Under the pieces are notes generated by a model. It ran no database searches. It saw nothing but the letters and a program-made list of their open reading frames with translations, and was not told the origin of the DNA. Both the position numbers and the translations under genes were made by a program. From Marinomonas hwangdonensis (GTDB lineage Bacteria > Pseudomonadota > Gammaproteobacteria > Pseudomonadales > Marinomonadaceae): a DNA stretch of 64,000 bases. The stretch lies in contig NZ_RIZG01000004.1 of NCBI RefSeq assembly GCF_003721245.1, forward strand, positions 186,001-250,000, written 5' to 3'. Below, one piece after another: positions 36,106 to 43,451 of this stretch. Position 1 is the first letter of the stretch, and the number at the start of each line of letters is the position of its first letter.

Positions 36106-37224
36106 TTACGCATTTATTTTAAGAAGATGGTTGTCCCATTGGTAATTTGTATGTTTGTTGATCAAGTTGTGCGTGTTTTGAACAGGGTTGGCTTTTATTT
36201 GTGATCCTGTCCCCGTGGTCATTAAAAACTCATAAGGTTGGCTGGTTGCCGACAGTCCGCAGACATCACTAGCATTTGTTATACCAATAAAGTTATTGGA
36301 TGGCAGGTGCCAATAAGCCACTAAACCACCACGCGGGGAGCTCACTGCCAGAATCTCGCCCGATGTATCAAAACACACACTGCCGCAATATTGTTTAAAG
36401 CGGAGACGAATGGGTTCTGGCATCGGTAGATACGTCAATGTCGGTGCGTTAAGCTGAGAAAGACCAACGAGCGGTACCTTGTCTCGCACGTCACCTTGAT
36501 ACTGAAAGCCCAGCGCAACAACACCGTGCGGATTGACATCCAGGTGTCGAATACTGAGTTGATGATGTTCGTTATGAGAAACGCAATGCAGAACGCGACC
36601 ACTTTCTAAGGACAAATAGCTCACGTTAGGGGCCATGGTATCAAGATTGAGTATACGGCGATCGTTGTCTGGATGTGTTTTTAAACCACCGTTCGCCACA
36701 ATCAACTGATTCCCGTTAAAGCGCACGGATTCATGAGGACCAATACCATTACTGCTAAACGACCTGATGATGTCACCGGTCGGCCAGTCTCGTATTACGA
36801 TTTTCCCTTGCCCTGTTGGATAATGATTTTCTTGACTGATGAGCTGGGTACCATTGGCATTAAACAAGGCGTGACCATAAAAATGATGATGCTGACTTGG
36901 CGTTACGCGAAGAAGGTGTTGGCGACTTGTCAAATCAAAAAAATCCATAAAAAACCCCGGTCTTCGAGCCACAATGCCCACAATGCTTTGCTGCGGATGC
37001 ACTACGGGGGCATGGGCTCTATCCGGCAGTCTTGTGGACCAAACGAGCTGGCCTGATTCATCAAATAAGCCAAAGCCGTGGTGATTGGATCCTGTGGTGA
37101 ACGCCGAGGCATAATGATGTTGATCCGCTTGCGATTGATGGTCTTGGTATGAGTAAAGGGAAGCCCAGCTGGGGGCGGCGATGGCGGCCCCTGTAAGCTT
37201 TAAAAAGTCGCGCCTTGACCACAT
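36106..37224 (-). CDS. DUF1513 family protein, Tat-exported
   Basis: This 372-residue protein begins 'MWSRRDFLKLTGAAIAAPSW', a twin-arginine signal with SRRDFLK. The mature part looks like a beta-propeller (repeated strand patterns such as 'HHFYGHALFNANGTQLISQE'), as in DUF1513 proteins. It is last in a minus-strand group with imelysins and a di-heme oxidoreductase, the same partners as P. aeruginosa PA4370-PA4373. A role in envelope iron handling is inferred from these partners. Confidence 0.88.
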   Translation of the reverse strand: MWSRRDFLKLTGAAIAAPSWASLYSYQDHQSQADQHHYASAFTTGSNHHGFGLFDESGQLVWSTRLPDRAHAPVVHPQQSIVGIVARRPGFFMDFFDLTSRQHLLRVTPSQHHHFYGHALFNANGTQLISQENHYPTGQGKIVIRDWPTGDIIRSFSSNGIGPHESVRFNGNQLIVANGGLKTHPDNDRRILNLDTMAPNVSYLSLESGRVLHCVSHNEHHQLSIRHLDVNPHGVVALGFQYQGDVRDKVPLVGLSQLNAPTLTYLPMPEPIRLRFKQYCGSVCFDTSGEILAVSSPRGGLVAYWHLPSNNFIGITNASDVCGLSATSQPYEFLMTTGTGSQIKANPVQNTHNLINKHTNYQWDNHLLKINA

Positions 37225-37226
37225 TG

Positions 37227-38321
37227 CTAATCTCCATCTCGGCTGTTGAAACCAATTTGAAAGCCCAGCGCGGTGACCAGCTGAGACAAATAGGCTTGGC
37301 TACGACTTAATGAAGTGACTAATGGCTGTACTTGATCGCGTCGACTTGTCTGCTGATCTACATGAGCTTGGTCTGGGTGCAGCAGAGTTTCTGGCAGACT
37401 TAGCGCCATTTTAAGACTGAGGGTGAGCTGTTTTTCTAATTGTATCGCCAGCTCAGGTTGTAACTGCTGAGCAACATCGAACAATGAAGGTGGCCCTGCA
37501 TGATAGATGGCGCGGTAAGACTGCAGATTCGTTTGTATGGCCTTTAGGGATAAATGGCTCCGGTAAAACTCAGCTAGTTTCAGATTTTCGTTGCCATGGT
37601 AGCCGAGTGGTGTTTCAAGCTTGGCGTCTTTTGTCATACCTATATGCTCTATCCATTGCAATAAAAATGCTTTCAGTGCCAGCTTTTTGGTATCCAAATC
37701 CGCTTCATCAGCAGCAAACACCCAATCCTCAGCGTGTCCTGTTTGCCACTGACGATTAACATCCATAGCGCTTAAAGCATGATGTTCGGTGACGTTTGTC
37801 AGTAAATGGCAATCTTGGATAGAGGTCAAAGGAGAGAAGTCAGGGTGATACAGCAAACTCTCAATCGCAGTTAAACCACGCACCGCGATGCTGGCTTTTT
37901 GCCAAAAGTCTTCAGAATCTAACGTGGCGGGATCAGCCTGCGACATACTTCTTAACTGTCTCTGGGTGATGCCCTTCTTATCGGGCCAATACTCAAATGC
38001 GTAGTAACGCATAAAATAGGTGACTGGGCCAAAATTCAGCCACTGTACTTTTTGCCAGTCTAAGACATTATTTTTGAACACTTCCCGAGTGTTCAGCAAC
38101 GCAGATTCTGAGGGACGGGCACAAAGAGCCGCACTGCTTTCTTGAAGCAAAGCGGCGGATCTAGCGTAAGACTGGTAGCCGTTAGCAATCACTTGGTCTG
38201 ATATGCCATTCAAAGGCCCATCCCATTGGCTAGCATTGGCCATAACAGGAGCGGTGACGCTGAGCATGATGACGAAGGATCGAGAAACAAATATTTTAAG
38301 AAAAGAACGGGGTAATGCCAT
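37227..38321 (-). CDS. Imelysin-family protein (M75 peptidase-like)
   Basis: This 364-residue protein has a signal peptide ending near 'VMANAS' and a helical imelysin domain. Imelysins are periplasmic or outer-membrane proteins induced by iron limitation; most are not proven peptidases. The family GxHxxE motif is not obvious here, so this looks like the divergent second imelysin (PA4372-type). Its stop lies 2 bp from the DUF1513 start, and its start touches the oxidoreductase stop, so all are coupled. Confidence 0.87.
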   Translation of the reverse strand: MALPRSFLKIFVSRSFVIMLSVTAPVMANASQWDGPLNGISDQVIANGYQSYARSAALLQESSAALCARPSESALLNTREVFKNNVLDWQKVQWLNFGPVTYFMRYYAFEYWPDKKGITQRQLRSMSQADPATLDSEDFWQKASIAVRGLTAIESLLYHPDFSPLTSIQDCHLLTNVTEHHALSAMDVNRQWQTGHAEDWVFAADEADLDTKKLALKAFLLQWIEHIGMTKDAKLETPLGYHGNENLKLAEFYRSHLSLKAIQTNLQSYRAIYHAGPPSLFDVAQQLQPELAIQLEKQLTLSLKMALSLPETLLHPDQAHVDQQTSRRDQVQPLVTSLSRSQAYLSQLVTALGFQIGFNSRDGD

Positions 38322-39730
38322 TAGAGTGACTCCAAAAAAAACATGAGGGTTCTGCGTTGTTCCGCGGATAAATTTTTATAATTTTGTTTGCTGCTGAGTG
38401 CTTCACCGCCATGCCATAAAATTGCTTCTTCGAGAGTTTTTGCCCTGCCATCGTGTAGAAACCCTTCACGACCAGAGATTTTTCTCGATAAACCCATTCC
38501 CCACAAAGGGGCTGTTCGCCACTCCGTTGGTTTAGCCGAGAAGCTCGGGAAGCCGCTGGCGAGTCCAGGTCCCATGTCATGCAATAGCAAGTCGGTAAAA
38601 GGGTAAAAGGTACGATTGTTTAATGCCGCAAATGTTGAGGTATTGCCTGTTTGCATTTTTGGTGTGTGGCAGCTGGCACAACCTAATTCCTCAAAAACCT
38701 GTTTTCCAGACAAAAAGTCATTGTGGCTAAGATTGCGCATAGCCGGAGGTGAGGATAAGGCAACAAAAGCATCCAGCAGGGCCATTTGTTTTTTGTCGAC
38801 TTCGAGGTTATCTAAATGCGCGCTACTACCGTTTGGGCTTTGTATGCAATCTATTTGAACGTCAGTACAGTCACCGGTAGAAGAATCCTGTAGTGGTGTG
38901 GACAAGCCTAAATCTGTATTAAAAGCGAGCTGGTTTTGCTCGCTTAATGTGGCGACAGAGGCCTTATATCCAAAGCGACCCAAGCGTCGAGTTTGGCCGG
39001 GGGGGGCGGGTAGCCAACTCGGGCGTCCTCGAATGCCATCCTTGTTGCTGTCATCTGGGTCGGCATTCGCAAGAATGAACGACTCTGGCACCTGATCCAA
39101 TAGCCCCATGCCGATTAGAGCGGGCGCCACTAGCATGGTAAACCCTGTGTGGTCTTCAAACTGACCGTAGTTGAGTTTCGTCCAATGAAGCAGGGGTTTT
39201 CTCAATGTGATCTGAGTGCCATCGGCCAGCGTTTCGATGTGCGTTTGATAAGATACCGTGAAGTCTCCTTCGGGAAGAATCCCTGGCGTGCTGTTGCTCT
39301 GAAATTGATGGCCGTAGGTTTTGTCCCCAATGTGAGGGTATATCGCGTGTGGTTCGTTTTTCGTTAACCTACTAGAAACCTTATCCGGTAATGGATAGGT
39401 CTTGCCCAACCTAACCATAAAAGAAGGCACCGACGCGCCACTGATCGCAGCTTCCGGGGCGTGGCCTCGTCCATTATTAAGATGACAGCTGTGACAAGAT
39501 CGGGCGTTATAAAGCGGCCCTAGTCCATCGCTGGCCGTCGTCGAAGAGGGTGAGGCTACCCAGAATTTTTCAAACACACTTTTGCCAATGCGAAAATGCA
39601 GCTTATCTTCAACGGCAATTTCTGCCAATGGGCGTGTGTAGTCCGCCGCAAAGGTGAGGTTCGAGAAACAAAAAAAGCTGACGTAAACGCCAGCGGCTAA
39701 AAGCACATGATTATTACTTTTTTCGGTCAT
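38321..39730 (-). CDS. Di-heme oxidoreductase (DUF1111/thiol oxidoreductase family)
   Basis: This 469-residue secreted protein has two c-type heme motifs: CHSCH near residue 80 ('ARSCHSCHLNNGRGH') and CASCH near residue 355 ('ELGCASCHTPKMQTG'). It has an N-terminal signal/anchor. The family resembles MauG/CCP-like di-heme enzymes and co-occurs with imelysins. It shares 1 bp with the downstream imelysin gene. Substrate is unknown; a link to iron reduction or oxidation at the envelope is inference. Confidence 0.9.
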   Translation of the reverse strand: MTEKSNNHVLLAAGVYVSFFCFSNLTFAADYTRPLAEIAVEDKLHFRIGKSVFEKFWVASPSSTTASDGLGPLYNARSCHSCHLNNGRGHAPEAAISGASVPSFMVRLGKTYPLPDKVSSRLTKNEPHAIYPHIGDKTYGHQFQSNSTPGILPEGDFTVSYQTHIETLADGTQITLRKPLLHWTKLNYGQFEDHTGFTMLVAPALIGMGLLDQVPESFILANADPDDSNKDGIRGRPSWLPAPPGQTRRLGRFGYKASVATLSEQNQLAFNTDLGLSTPLQDSSTGDCTDVQIDCIQSPNGSSAHLDNLEVDKKQMALLDAFVALSSPPAMRNLSHNDFLSGKQVFEELGCASCHTPKMQTGNTSTFAALNNRTFYPFTDLLLHDMGPGLASGFPSFSAKPTEWRTAPLWGMGLSRKISGREGFLHDGRAKTLEEAILWHGGEALSSKQNYKNLSAEQRRTLMFFLESL

Positions 39731-39852
39731 TCGTAGATAAGTACCATTAACTGACTCAATGACGTCATTTTTCTAATAGTTAAGGTGCTGTGCATCTTTG
39801 CTAAAGCTCTTTTTTGTTAACACTCTTATTTAAAACTCTATTTACACTTTTT

Positions 39853-41145
39853 TTAAAAGACAGCGCTTGGGTTATCCAAGCTGTCAGAGCCTTCCAGTGC
39901 AATGCCTTGTATGTTCAATAAGCGAATAATCTCTTCCGTTGAGCGAGTTTCGTTCACTAAGGAATCAACAAAAGTCTGCACCAGTTGGTTACCTTGAGTG
40001 TTGTTCAAGGCAATTAATACATCAAAGGTTTGTCCTTGTTTCGCTGCATCAACCATCGCTTGTGCTGCGGCTTCTGTGGTGTTCAATTTATCTTTCATTA
40101 CGCTGTCGAGTTCTGAGTTTTGTGTTGCCACTAGGTCAGATAAAGAGGCGCCTTTTACCCAACTGCCATCGACACGTTGATATTCACCCAGATAGACGTT
40201 TTTGATGCCTTTTGCATTGTAATAGTGGGACCAGTGAGTATTGTCAGAAAAACAGTCATGCTCTTCTTCAGGGTCATGAAGCATTAACCCTAGCTTGGTT
40301 CTTTCTCCGCCAAGCTCGCCATACGCCAAGCTGCCCATGCCCGTCAACATGGTGGCCAGTCCAGCGTCGGTAGATTGATCCAGCAGTGCCATACGGGCAG
40401 CGCCGCCTTCTTGCCAGTAACTGGCCATGTCTTCGAGATCAGAAATCAGTAAATCCGTGACGGCTTCTAAGTAGGCGCGACGGCGATCACAGTTACCGTT
40501 CGTGCAATTAGCCAAATCGTAGTCTGTCGCTGGGCGTTCACCCGCGCCAGGATTCGTGCCGTATAGGTCTTGTCCCCACAGTAAGAATTCAATGGCGTGG
40601 TAGCCACTTGCCACATTAGCCTCAATACCGTCGGCTTCTTGAAGTTTGTTTGCGATTAATTCCGGAGTGATGTGTGTAGTATCGACGCGCTCACCGCCAA
40701 TCATCAGGCTTTTTGAAGCAATGATATTAGCCGTATAAAGTGCGTTAATATCAGATTGCGTTCCGTAACTGTCTGTTGCGACATAATCGATCAGACCTTC
40801 ATCGAGAGGCCACGCATTCACCTTCCCTTCCCAGTCATCAACAACGGCATTGCCAAAACGATATACTTCGGATTGTTGATACGGTACACGTGCGGCAATC
40901 CAAGCTTGTCTTGCAGCTTGCAAGTTGTTTTCAGTCGGTTCTGAGAGGAAGGCATCAATTGCATGACGAAGTGTTTTTGCTGTCGTCAACGAATCGCCAT
41001 ACACGGCTTCTGCAATATCTGCATAATGTGTGACAACGGCATCGGCTGAGGCTTGTTTTTCGATGTGTTGAACGGATGATGACGAGCATGCAGTGAGCAG
41101 TGCACCCGCGACACAAATAGCCACAGGGCTGAATATACCTTTCAT
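39853..41145 (-). CDS. Imelysin lipoprotein (IrpA/ICMP-like)
   Basis: About 430 residues. Starting at ATG 41145 gives a lipoprotein signal with lipobox LTAC; an upstream in-frame ATG at 41187 would bury it. It carries the imelysin GxHxxE motif in 'SGYHAIEFLLWGQD'. The family includes iron-regulated IrpA and P. aeruginosa IcmP (PA4370). A Fur-like site sits just upstream, so iron-starvation induction is likely. It leads the cluster, with a 122-bp gap before the di-heme oxidoreductase gene. Confidence 0.92.
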   Translation of the reverse strand: MKGIFSPVAICVAGALLTACSSSSVQHIEKQASADAVVTHYADIAEAVYGDSLTTAKTLRHAIDAFLSEPTENNLQAARQAWIAARVPYQQSEVYRFGNAVVDDWEGKVNAWPLDEGLIDYVATDSYGTQSDINALYTANIIASKSLMIGGERVDTTHITPELIANKLQEADGIEANVASGYHAIEFLLWGQDLYGTNPGAGERPATDYDLANCTNGNCDRRRAYLEAVTDLLISDLEDMASYWQEGGAARMALLDQSTDAGLATMLTGMGSLAYGELGGERTKLGLMLHDPEEEHDCFSDNTHWSHYYNAKGIKNVYLGEYQRVDGSWVKGASLSDLVATQNSELDSVMKDKLNTTEAAAQAMVDAAKQGQTFDVLIALNNTQGNQLVQTFVDSLVNETRSTEEIIRLLNIQGIALEGSDSLDNPSAVF

Positions 41146-41189: not shown

Positions 41190-41203
41190 AAAAATGATTA
41201 TCA
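41190..41203 (-). promoter_or_regulatory. Fur-box-like site upstream of the imelysin cluster
   Basis: On the minus strand the sequence reads TGATAATCATTTTT, matching the GATAAT-CATT-type core of the Fur consensus in two of three hexamers. It lies ~45 bp upstream of the chosen imelysin start, in promoter range. Members of this family are iron-regulated, which supports it. Confidence 0.6.
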
Positions 41204-41388: not shown

Positions 41389-41967
41389 TTAGCACTGGTA
41401 TCGAAAGCTATTGCTTGCTGTGTTGTGAAGCGGGTATTCACACGCTTTGCTGCGCAAATGATTCTGACCTTCCCAAGACACACTCATACTGACAGGTGCG
41501 GTATTGTGATAACTAGGAATAAACCGATAAGCGGCAACGATTTCAATACTGCTGTTGGCGCCAAGCTGTACTGATTGACCAATGAGACGCTGTCGTGTCT
41601 CAACATTATAGAGTGTGTAATCTGTGGTGTACTCTTGACCGCCGTTCTCGTGGGAAAAGTTGAGCCATATTTTACGGTACGTTTGTGGTTTAGAGGTGGG
41701 ATTTTCAAGACGTAGCTTAGTATAAATCATTTGCGGTTGCGTTAGGCTAGTTTGCGCCTGCTGGCTGACTTTTAGATACGACGAGGGTGTCGTTTGCCAA
41801 GGCATAGCACTTCCAAAAGACGCATCTACAATAACAACGCTTTCCTTTGCTAAATAGGACTGCAAAAACTGAGCGAGATCTTTTAGTGGGGCGTACATAG
41901 CCAGTGCCAATACGCCCAGTAGTGAGATTTTACGAATGCCGCGATTTATACCAAAAAACGTTAGCAT
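41389..41967 (-). CDS. Unrecognised membrane-anchored protein with SOS-type promoter
   Basis: This 192-residue protein has one N-terminal transmembrane helix or uncleaved signal anchor (about residues 13-30, 'ISLLGVLALAMYAPLKD'). The rest is probably extracytoplasmic, beta-rich, with two Cys near the C-terminus that could form a disulfide. I recognise no family. It has a good ribosome binding site (AAGGAAG, 7 nt before ATG). Its promoter overlaps two perfect LexA-type boxes, so DNA-damage induction is likely. It is monocistronic. Confidence 0.75.
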   Translation of the reverse strand: MLTFFGINRGIRKISLLGVLALAMYAPLKDLAQFLQSYLAKESVVIVDASFGSAMPWQTTPSSYLKVSQQAQTSLTQPQMIYTKLRLENPTSKPQTYRKIWLNFSHENGGQEYTTDYTLYNVETRQRLIGQSVQLGANSSIEIVAAYRFIPSYHNTAPVSMSVSWEGQNHLRSKACEYPLHNTASNSFRYQC

Positions 41968-41989
41968 GACTACTTCCTTAAACTATCTT

Positions 41990-42009
41990 TACTGTTTATT
42001 TATACAGTA
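41990..42009 (-). promoter_or_regulatory. LexA (SOS) box 1
   Basis: The site is TACTG-type with exact CTGT-N8-ACAG (CTGT TTATTTAT ACAG) and flanking TA on both sides, the gammaproteobacterial LexA consensus. On the minus strand it covers a TATAAA -10 (41999-42004) with a TTACTG -35 (42023-42028) 18 bp away, 23 bp upstream of the gene at 41967. Confidence 0.85.
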
Positions 42010-42027
42010 CTGTATATCCAAACAGTA
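42008..42027 (-). promoter_or_regulatory. LexA (SOS) box 2, overlapping box 1
   Basis: A second exact CTGT-N8-ACAG (CTGT ATATCCAA ACAG) overlaps box 1 by two bases and reaches the predicted -35. The junction of the two boxes is a perfect 16-bp palindrome (42001-42016). Tandem boxes typically mean tight LexA repression. Confidence 0.83.
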
Positions 42028-42272
42028 ATTATGTATAGAATATTTTTAAATAAAGTTTGCATTTCTCATAAAATTTTTGCCATTTTGCGAAAAAGGCGCT
42101 TTTAAAAAAATTATCAGAAAAGGTTTGATTTTATTTAGTGAGTTGTTTTTTAAAGGATTATTCATGATTCCCACAGCCTTCTTAACGGATTCTGTGGACA
42201 AAAAAATATGGCCGTTGTTTTCATACTCTCAGGCACTATAATGCTGCCACAAATCAAGTTATGGGGTAGGTT

Positions 42273-43451
42273 GTGGATAAAGTGGATGTAATTGTATTGG
42301 GTGCTGGCGCGTCGGGTTTAATGTGTGCAGCAACGGCGGCTTACCGAGGGAGAAAAGTGGTGGTGTTAGACCACGCTAACAAAGCCGGTAAGAAAATACT
42401 CATGTCAGGAGGAGGGCGCTGTAATTTTACTAACATGGACGCTGCTCCAAAACACTTCTTATCAGACAACCCGCATTTTTGTATTTCAGCGTTACATCGG
42501 TATTCTGCTCAGGACTTTGTGGATCTTGTCGACCGTCATGGTTTAGAGTATGTCGAAAAAGCCCCAGGGCAACTTTTTTGTGAACACTCTGCCAAAGACC
42601 TGCTTGATATTTTACTGACAGAGGTAGAATGGTCTGGCGCAGAACTCAAGCTCAATACCAAAATTCATCAGGTTGAGTGTCAGGAAGGCAAGACTCTCGT
42701 CAAAACCAGCCAAGGTGACTTCCTGTGTGACTCTTTAGTGGTTGCCACAGGCGGCTTGTCGATCCCGACTATGGGAGCCACAGGCTTTGGGTATGAGATT
42801 GCCCAACAAATAGGTCATGATATTTTGCCAACGCGGGCGAGCTTGGTGCCTATTACTGTACAACCAGACCGTAAAGCGCAGCTGGCAGAGTTATCCGGTA
42901 TTGCGTGCGATATAGCCGCGACCGCCAAAGGCGTGACTTTTCAAGAGCCCATGTTGTTCACCCATAGAGGCGTGAGTGGCCCATCGATTCTACAGATCAC
43001 CAACTTTTGGCAGCCTGGTGAATCGCTCAGCATTAACATTGCGCCGATGTTATCATTGGATGACTTGATGTCGATTCGTCAACATAGCCCGAAAAAAAGC
43101 TACGAAGGCTTCTTATCCACATTATTGCCAAAGCGCCTAGTCGAGCTGATTAAAACTGAATTCCCTTGGCTTACTGAGCGCAGCGCGCAAACCTCTAACG
43201 AACAAATTGAAACCCTGTTTGGTTATCTTTCGAACTTTGACATCGCCCCCAACGGTACCGAAGGCTATCGAACAGCAGAAGTCACACTAGGCGGCGTAAA
43301 CACAAAAGAAGTGTCATCCAAAACCTTCGAATCGCAAAAACAGCCGGGTGTATACTTTATCGGGGAAGTCCTAGACGTCACCGGCTGGCTTGGGGGATAT
43401 AACTTCCAATGGGCATGGGCCAGCGGCTTCTGTGCAGGGCAGTATGTGTGA
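42273..43451 (+). CDS. HI0933/YhiN-family flavoprotein
   Basis: This 392-residue FAD/NAD(P)-binding oxidoreductase has a dinucleotide motif 'VLGAGASGLMCAATAA', then 'GKKILMSGGGRCNFTN', the hallmark of the family, and C-terminal 'GEVLDVTGWLGGYNFQWAW'. The physiological substrate is not established. The start is GTG at 42273, preceded by GGGG; another GTG lies three codons on. It is transcribed away from the SOS-type gene. Confidence 0.92.
   Translation: MDKVDVIVLGAGASGLMCAATAAYRGRKVVVLDHANKAGKKILMSGGGRCNFTNMDAAPKHFLSDNPHFCISALHRYSAQDFVDLVDRHGLEYVEKAPGQLFCEHSAKDLLDILLTEVEWSGAELKLNTKIHQVECQEGKTLVKTSQGDFLCDSLVVATGGLSIPTMGATGFGYEIAQQIGHDILPTRASLVPITVQPDRKAQLAELSGIACDIAATAKGVTFQEPMLFTHRGVSGPSILQITNFWQPGESLSINIAPMLSLDDLMSIRQHSPKKSYEGFLSTLLPKRLVELIKTEFPWLTERSAQTSNEQIETLFGYLSNFDIAPNGTEGYRTAEVTLGGVNTKEVSSKTFESQKQPGVYFIGEVLDVTGWLGGYNFQWAWASGFCAGQYV

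Follow-up and report, generated by a model that had tools for sequence, protein, structure and literature searches.

A stretch of 64,000 nucleotides of the Marinomonas hwangdonensis genome (contig NZ_RIZG01000004.1, positions 186,001 to 250,000), hereafter termed the window, was analyzed for a gene of no recognizable family that is preceded by two LexA boxes. The gene is an open reading frame (ORF) on the reverse strand (41389–41967) that encodes a protein of 192 residues, here called the orphan protein, and is considered a candidate SOS effector. All features given below for this gene and its operator are on the reverse strand. An initial annotation, made from the letters of the window alone, had pointed out this ORF and its paired boxes, and both were found in the sequence as described. 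The forward strand reads CTGTTTATTTATACAG at 41992–42007 and CTGTATATCCAAACAG at 42010–42025, each an exact match to CTGT-N8-ACAG. Read toward the gene, the core of the proximal box is CTGTATAAATAAACAG and that of the distal box is CTGTTTGGATATACAG. With their flanking TA dinucleotides the boxes extend to 20-mers (proximal, 41990–42009; distal, 42008–42027) that share a TA and, thus, overlap by 2 bp, with the box centers 18 bp apart.

The ATG start codon of the orphan gene is preceded by the ribosome-binding site AAGGAAG (41973–41979), as read from the sequence. The proximal core lies 24 bp from the ATG, or 22 bp when measured from its flanking TA, rather than the 23 bp given initially. The promoter proposed at the same time (TTACTG and TATAAA, spaced by 18 bp) was borne out in part. 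Both hexamers are present, and TATAAA, a possible −10 element that lies within the proximal box (41999–42004), is identical in 26 of 47 orthologues. By contrast, the TTACTG assigned as −35 element (42023–42028) is a weak hexamer that was found in only 9 of 47 orthologues, and a general promoter scan did not list the pair. Separately, a TATACA/TGTACA element was noticed by eye about 8 bp before the distal box in many orthologues and could be either a third half-site for LexA or an element of the promoter.

Conservation of the tandem LexA operator

Single CTGT-N8-ACAG boxes are not rare in the window (3 found versus 0.84 expected, with 3 reached in 7 of 100 shuffles), and thus the case for LexA control rests on the pairing of the boxes and on their conservation. 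The joined pattern CTGTN8ACAGTACTGTN8ACAG occurs once in the window's genome (G000, 3.46 Mb, in which the window falls within contig C20). It has exactly one occurrence in each of 35 of the 48 genus genomes, while the reversed control pattern had no occurrence in the same 48 genomes. The genus sample takes in Maribrevibacterium, as the DNA upstream of the gene in one member (G014) was read to match that at the Maribrevibacterium locus. When coordinates were compared by reading, every occurrence of the joined pair was found to sit just upstream of the orphan gene.

Conservation of the boxes upstream of orthologues had been named in the initial annotation as a check on its proposal, and this conservation was found. 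Among the first 30 orthologue loci, two exact boxes 18 bp apart were present in 25 and one in the other 5. When all 47 loci were scored for the 16 fixed bases in the 18-bp register, 36 scored 16 (exact pairs), 10 scored 15, and one, from Maribrevibacterium, scored 12 and has one exact box plus a half-site; by comparison, none of 235 mononucleotide shuffles (five per locus) exceeded 13, and 27 scored 12 or 13. Related genomes are not independent, and these orthologue counts are therefore not to be read as a probability. Mean information was 1.53 bits per column in the operator versus 0.57 and 0.62 in its flanks, and the operator center, TACAGTACTGT, is almost invariant. Exact box pairs were also detected upstream of genes for proteins that are only 47–53% identical to that of the window (e.g., 47% for the G013 orthologue). 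As two LexA operators in fixed register are kept while more than half of the protein sequence changes, the orphan gene likely matters to SOS physiology.

The boxes could in principle serve the gene on their other side, an HI0933-like oxidoreductase (42273–43451) that is divergent from the orphan gene and is its divergent neighbor in 9 of 9 loci examined. Distances speak against this assignment. The box ends lie 247–265 bp from the oxidoreductase start in the window and 203–221 bp in genome G029, compared to 24–42 and 14–32 bp, respectively, from the orphan gene. In the 47 orthologues, the exact boxes of a pair stop 8–92 bp short of the script-chosen start codon of the orphan gene; in G028 this codon falls inside the second box and was probably chosen too far upstream, such that the true start may be further down. 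Control of the oxidoreductase instead of the orphan gene is, thus, very improbable.

The orphan gene and the LexA regulon of the genus

Three genomes were scanned for places within 3 mismatches of CTGTATATATATACAG. Compared to the reversed pattern, 16 versus 2 places were found in G000, 26 versus 15 in G009 and 15 versus 2 in G029; many of the G009 places are, therefore, due to chance. All 16 places in G000, 19 of the 26 in G009 and all 15 in G029 were inspected for an ORF that starts within 300 bp of the box. In G000, box-bearing genes identified by Pfam were lexA, recA, yebG, an S24 peptidase gene taken as umuD, and an integrase gene, while uvrA, ruvC, dinG and topoisomerase III were recognized at box loci by eye. 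Among the inspected places, the three genomes had in common lexA, recA, uvrA, umuD, yebG and the orphan gene; lexA faced a divergent DinG-like helicase gene, uvrA a transporter-like ORF and yebG a membrane-like ORF, each likewise divergent. The orphan gene marked the only one of these shared loci at which no textbook SOS gene was present. The seven other places in G009 could add to the set only with a partner in the other two genomes, the clearest case being ruvC (seen in G000 and G029). Taken together, the exact pair in 36 of 47 orthologues and the same box at recognizable SOS genes strongly support the view, put forward in the initial annotation, of a new SOS gene under two LexA boxes. Judged from sequence, the orphan gene is almost certainly a member of the LexA (SOS) regulon.

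The same scan yielded a number of side observations. Upstream of lexA, in the region shared with the divergent DinG-like helicase gene, two boxes 19 bp apart were seen in G009 and G029 (L163 and L167) and one exact box in G000. The yebG box (L032, L154 and L153) is shared in all three genomes with the divergent membrane-like ORF, which is 284–326 amino acids (aa) in length and whose G000 copy had no NCBIfam match. Two integron-type integrase genes of G000 (L037, C21:138228; L038, C23:46750), the first assigned to the phage-integrase family by Pfam and the second recognized by similarity, each carry an exact LexA box that coincides with the start or lies shortly before it, which points to integrons that may be under SOS control. 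An exact, strong LexA box was also found in G000 (L033, C23:154623), about 320 bp ahead of an ORF with a length of 392 aa or more. The ORF appeared HNH-like by eye, had no Pfam or NCBIfam match, and is possibly another orphan SOS gene. In G009 and G029, transposase-like genes (recognized by eye; TPYYHC.SRCVRRAFLCG) were found with LexA boxes at or near their starts (L147, L156 and L158).

Distribution, selection and family status

An orthologue of the orphan gene was detected in 47 of the 48 genus genomes, the single miss being a genome that is 77% complete. These counts derive from two surveys: one found orthologues in 35 of 35 genomes of the same genus (G000 included) and in 0 of 21 genomes of other genera in the order, and the second was positive for 17 of 18 genomes, five of which had already been counted. 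A profile search of 5.8 billion proteins (E ≤ 10) returned 75 proteins, of which all named ones were from Marinomonas or Maribrevibacterium, with no weaker tail of other families at a sensitivity limited to shared 5-residue words. Of 36 named loci retrieved by the family profile, 35 were from Marinomonas (one uncultured) and one from Maribrevibacterium harenarium. The median ratio of nonsynonymous to synonymous substitution rates (dN/dS; method NG86) was 0.058, indicating strong purifying selection on the protein; it was determined from 46 of the 47 coding sequences, using 95 pairs with dS < 3 out of 108 valued pairs at ≥70% identity.

The initial annotation had recognized no family for the protein, and database searches agreed. 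The window protein had no match in Pfam (E ≤ 1), NCBIfam or PADLOC, and no named relative was found beyond Marinomonas and Maribrevibacterium. Among 60 members searched against Pfam (E ≤ 1), 12 families were matched, all weakly, with DUF5067 in 8 of the 60 (best E 0.0093), and a profile search of the Protein Data Bank (PDB) gave nothing meaningful (best E 0.94). In literature searches on Marinomonas with LexA, SOS response or cutinase, no title or opening line of an abstract named the gene, and the main text of PMC11962581, searched for these terms, mentions neither LexA nor cutinase.

Some databases name relatives of this protein 'cutinase' (P0004, P0006, P0009, P0014 and others), which would make it a serine esterase. 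These names are misleading for a gene without known family: cutinase was not among the 12 families weakly matched by the 60 members, the window protein itself had no Pfam match, the GxSxG motif was found in 0 of 75 family proteins, and the predicted fold is a beta sandwich and not an alpha/beta hydrolase. We give the cutinase assignment practically no credence.

The tandem operator also brings to mind a toxic, lysis- or death-like product that is made late in the SOS response and repressed by two LexA dimers as at colicin genes. The architecture is similar, as two overlapping LexA targets block one promoter at the toxic gene of colicin E8 (PMC4482635). The distribution of the orphan gene argues otherwise, as the gene is present throughout nearly all of the genus, keeps its position on the chromosome in 9 of 9 loci examined and is under strong purifying selection. 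In addition, PADLOC gave no match, and the PHROGs matches of the 60 members were weak (nine families, each in a single member; best E 0.025). A toxic product is, thus, improbable. Mobile or phage origin was set aside based on the synteny of the 9 loci examined and the lack of a consistent PHROGs match.

The gene order behind this synteny, held in 9 of 9 loci examined (of 47), runs from the HI0933-like oxidoreductase through the orphan gene to an M75 peptidase, a di-haem oxidoreductase and the genes that follow. In the window, the latter form a conserved cluster (36106–41145) that adjoins the orphan gene and includes the M75 imelysin peptidase, the di-haem oxidoreductase and further genes. A Fur-box-like sequence, AATGATTATCA, was noticed by eye beside this cluster, near position 41190.

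Predicted structure and topology

An AlphaFold2 model based on 60 sequences (mean predicted local distance difference test score, pLDDT, 75.8; predicted template modeling score, pTM, 0.66) placed a helix at residues 7–39 and strands at residues 43–179 as a beta sandwich. The same layout was obtained in a second model, made for a member with 48% identity (pLDDT 74.3, pTM 0.60). The long N-terminal helix (codons 7–39, 41851–41949) is predicted from the model, hydropathy and alignment, and the beta sandwich (codons 43–179, 41431–41841), in which most of the invariant residues lie, from the two models and alignment. The N-terminus is positive and then hydrophobic, the hydrophobic part covering about residues 14–27, and hydropathy peaks at 1.53 over residues 14–32. 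Invariant residues in the alignment include Y25, A26, P27 and D30, where the hydrophobic stretch ends. The single N-terminal helix of the initial annotation is backed by the structure model, with a hydropathy peak that is modest, and the description of the orphan protein as a membrane protein is plausible as a prediction. The helix is a putative uncleaved signal anchor, with which the N-terminus is compatible, although its hydropathy is modest.

Alignment further revealed that C176 and C192, which bound the C-terminal segment (codons 176–192, 41392–41442), are invariant, and 63 of 75 family proteins have exactly two cysteines. The two invariant cysteines suggest a disulphide and, hence, a location in the periplasm; a C176–C192 disulphide is considered probable.

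Fold comparisons were generic. The best PDB rows by Foldseek were ApaG proteins, at low TM-score; for beta sandwiches of the ApaG, PCuAC and FixG type, the Foldseek TM-scores were about 0.30–0.42 by query length, with about 7–14% identity in the alignments. The VIA-align peaks were TRAP-delta (Z 8.2; 3.0 Å over 107 residues) and PCuAC (Z 8.3; 3.1 Å over 111 residues), where, on the scale of the tool itself, a Z of about 8 is typical in the absence of a clear match. A viral fold library returned only unnamed or uncharacterized proteins at low TM-score. ApaG did not figure among the 12 Pfam families that any of the 60 members matched at E ≤ 1, nor did the window protein have any Pfam match. ApaG, TRAP-delta and PCuAC were not accepted as relatives, being generic beta-sandwich matches, and families beyond the top rows may yet be related. 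As the matches are generic, no function follows from the fold.

SulA in the genus and order

The SulA family (PF03846) was matched in 0 of 48 genus genomes, with a control in which E. coli was the only one of 14 to match, and the window protein likewise had no PF03846 match. In the order, PF03846 was matched in 45 of 115 genomes (42 over the cut-off), some of the matches lying in open frames long enough for ImuA. Of six SulA-like loci fetched from the order, four have lexA beside the SulA-like gene. In G000, G009 and G029, no SulA-like gene was found beside lexA, which is followed instead by an oppositely oriented ORF of 86–92 aa. A profile built from the four SulA proteins linked to lexA had matches in 4 of 48 genus genomes; each match lay in an open frame of 241–262 aa, and the one of these four that was checked, in G009, is ImuA by NCBIfam. 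SulA looks absent from the genus. With no detectable SulA in the genus or beside lexA in three genomes, the analogy drawn initially between the orphan protein and division inhibitors such as SidA or YneA becomes somewhat more attractive. Non-match to SulA is, however, common in the order; its absence alone calls for no substitute, and replacement is only a hypothesis.

Proposed function of the orphan protein

The operator and its conservation, the selection on the gene and its presence throughout the genus are observed. Our best explanation, which is tentative as a whole, is that of a core SOS gene whose membrane-anchored product faces the periplasm and acts as a division brake or envelope guard. 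In the mechanism proposed, two LexA dimers would bind side by side on the operator in 18-bp register, where they would overlie the promoter region and repress the gene. RecA filaments would trigger the self-cleavage of LexA, leaving both sites empty and the gene expressed, and the double operator should make this expression tight and late. The N-terminal helix of the product is predicted to insert in the inner membrane and to leave the beta-sandwich domain, closed by the C176–C192 disulphide, in the periplasm. From there the protein would most likely hold back septal wall synthesis or division, or otherwise guard the envelope, until the DNA is repaired. It would, in doing so, fill the place that SulA has in some relatives by a membrane or periplasmic route like that of YneA or SosA.

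A number of findings weigh against this proposal. The modest hydropathy peak leaves a cleaved or non-inserted N-terminus possible, and no fold match points to the divisome or to peptidoglycan. Known membrane-bound SOS division inhibitors are much smaller. Conservation resides in the beta domain and the YAP..D segment more than along the hydrophobic helix, unlike in YneA, whose transmembrane domain binds FtsW (PMC13396833). At the Maribrevibacterium locus, the score of 12 of 16 is not above chance (27 of the 235 shuffles reach 12), and only the exact, start-adjacent box speaks for LexA there. In addition, 70 of the 115 order genomes are without a SulA match, at least four of which are members of the genus. 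The division-inhibitor reading, taken by itself, is conceivable but doubtful. We regard as rather unlikely the further claim that Marinomonas replaced the SulA/FtsZ checkpoint of its relatives with a new class of SOS checkpoint, in which a membrane-anchored, periplasmic beta-sandwich protein under a tandem LexA operator of rigid 18-bp register would, after DNA damage, stop septal wall synthesis from the periplasm. The product may instead be a LexA-controlled periplasmic protein of envelope maintenance (e.g., a chaperone-like or ligand-binding beta sandwich) that shields the envelope under DNA-damaging stress, with no direct role in division, a possibility to be taken seriously, even if the odds are against it.

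With its two tightly conserved LexA boxes, the orphan protein, present throughout Marinomonas, is a strong candidate for a new DNA-damage response protein at the cell envelope. It makes testable the question of how division is delayed, or the envelope guarded, during DNA repair in Gram-negative bacteria that lack SulA.

Comparison with known systems

SidA of Caulobacter crescentus is an SOS-controlled division inhibitor that is located in the membrane. Both SidA and DidA of this bacterium are far smaller than the orphan protein and are not known to contain a beta sandwich. DidA is described as an SOS-independent division inhibitor made after DNA damage (PMC4211646).

YneA of Bacillus is a small, SOS-induced division inhibitor with a single membrane segment and an extracytoplasmic domain, the transmembrane domain binding FtsW (PMC13396833). 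The orphan protein would share with YneA of B. subtilis its SOS control (here by the operator sequence), a predicted single membrane segment and a predicted extracytoplasmic domain. YneA, however, carries a LysM domain, whereas the orphan protein is a larger, predicted beta sandwich in a gammaproteobacterium and had no LysM match in Pfam (E ≤ 1). SosA of Staphylococcus is similarly a small SOS-induced membrane protein with an extracytoplasmic part that stops division (PMC6851548). From SosA of S. aureus, with which no direct sequence comparison was made, the orphan protein differs by a predicted folded C-terminal domain with two invariant cysteines.

The tandem operators of colicins (colicin E8; PMC4482635) have two overlapping LexA targets in common with the orphan gene; colicins are, however, plasmid toxin genes, whereas the orphan gene is chromosomal and core to its genus. 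With beta sandwiches of the ApaG, PCuAC and FixG type the orphan protein shares an approximate fold but differs in its low TM-scores and lack of a sequence family match. By analogy, it may share with SulA the would-be slot of an SOS-induced division block, but it differs in having no match to PF03846. The orphan protein forms a new family, encoded by a gene of a known kind.
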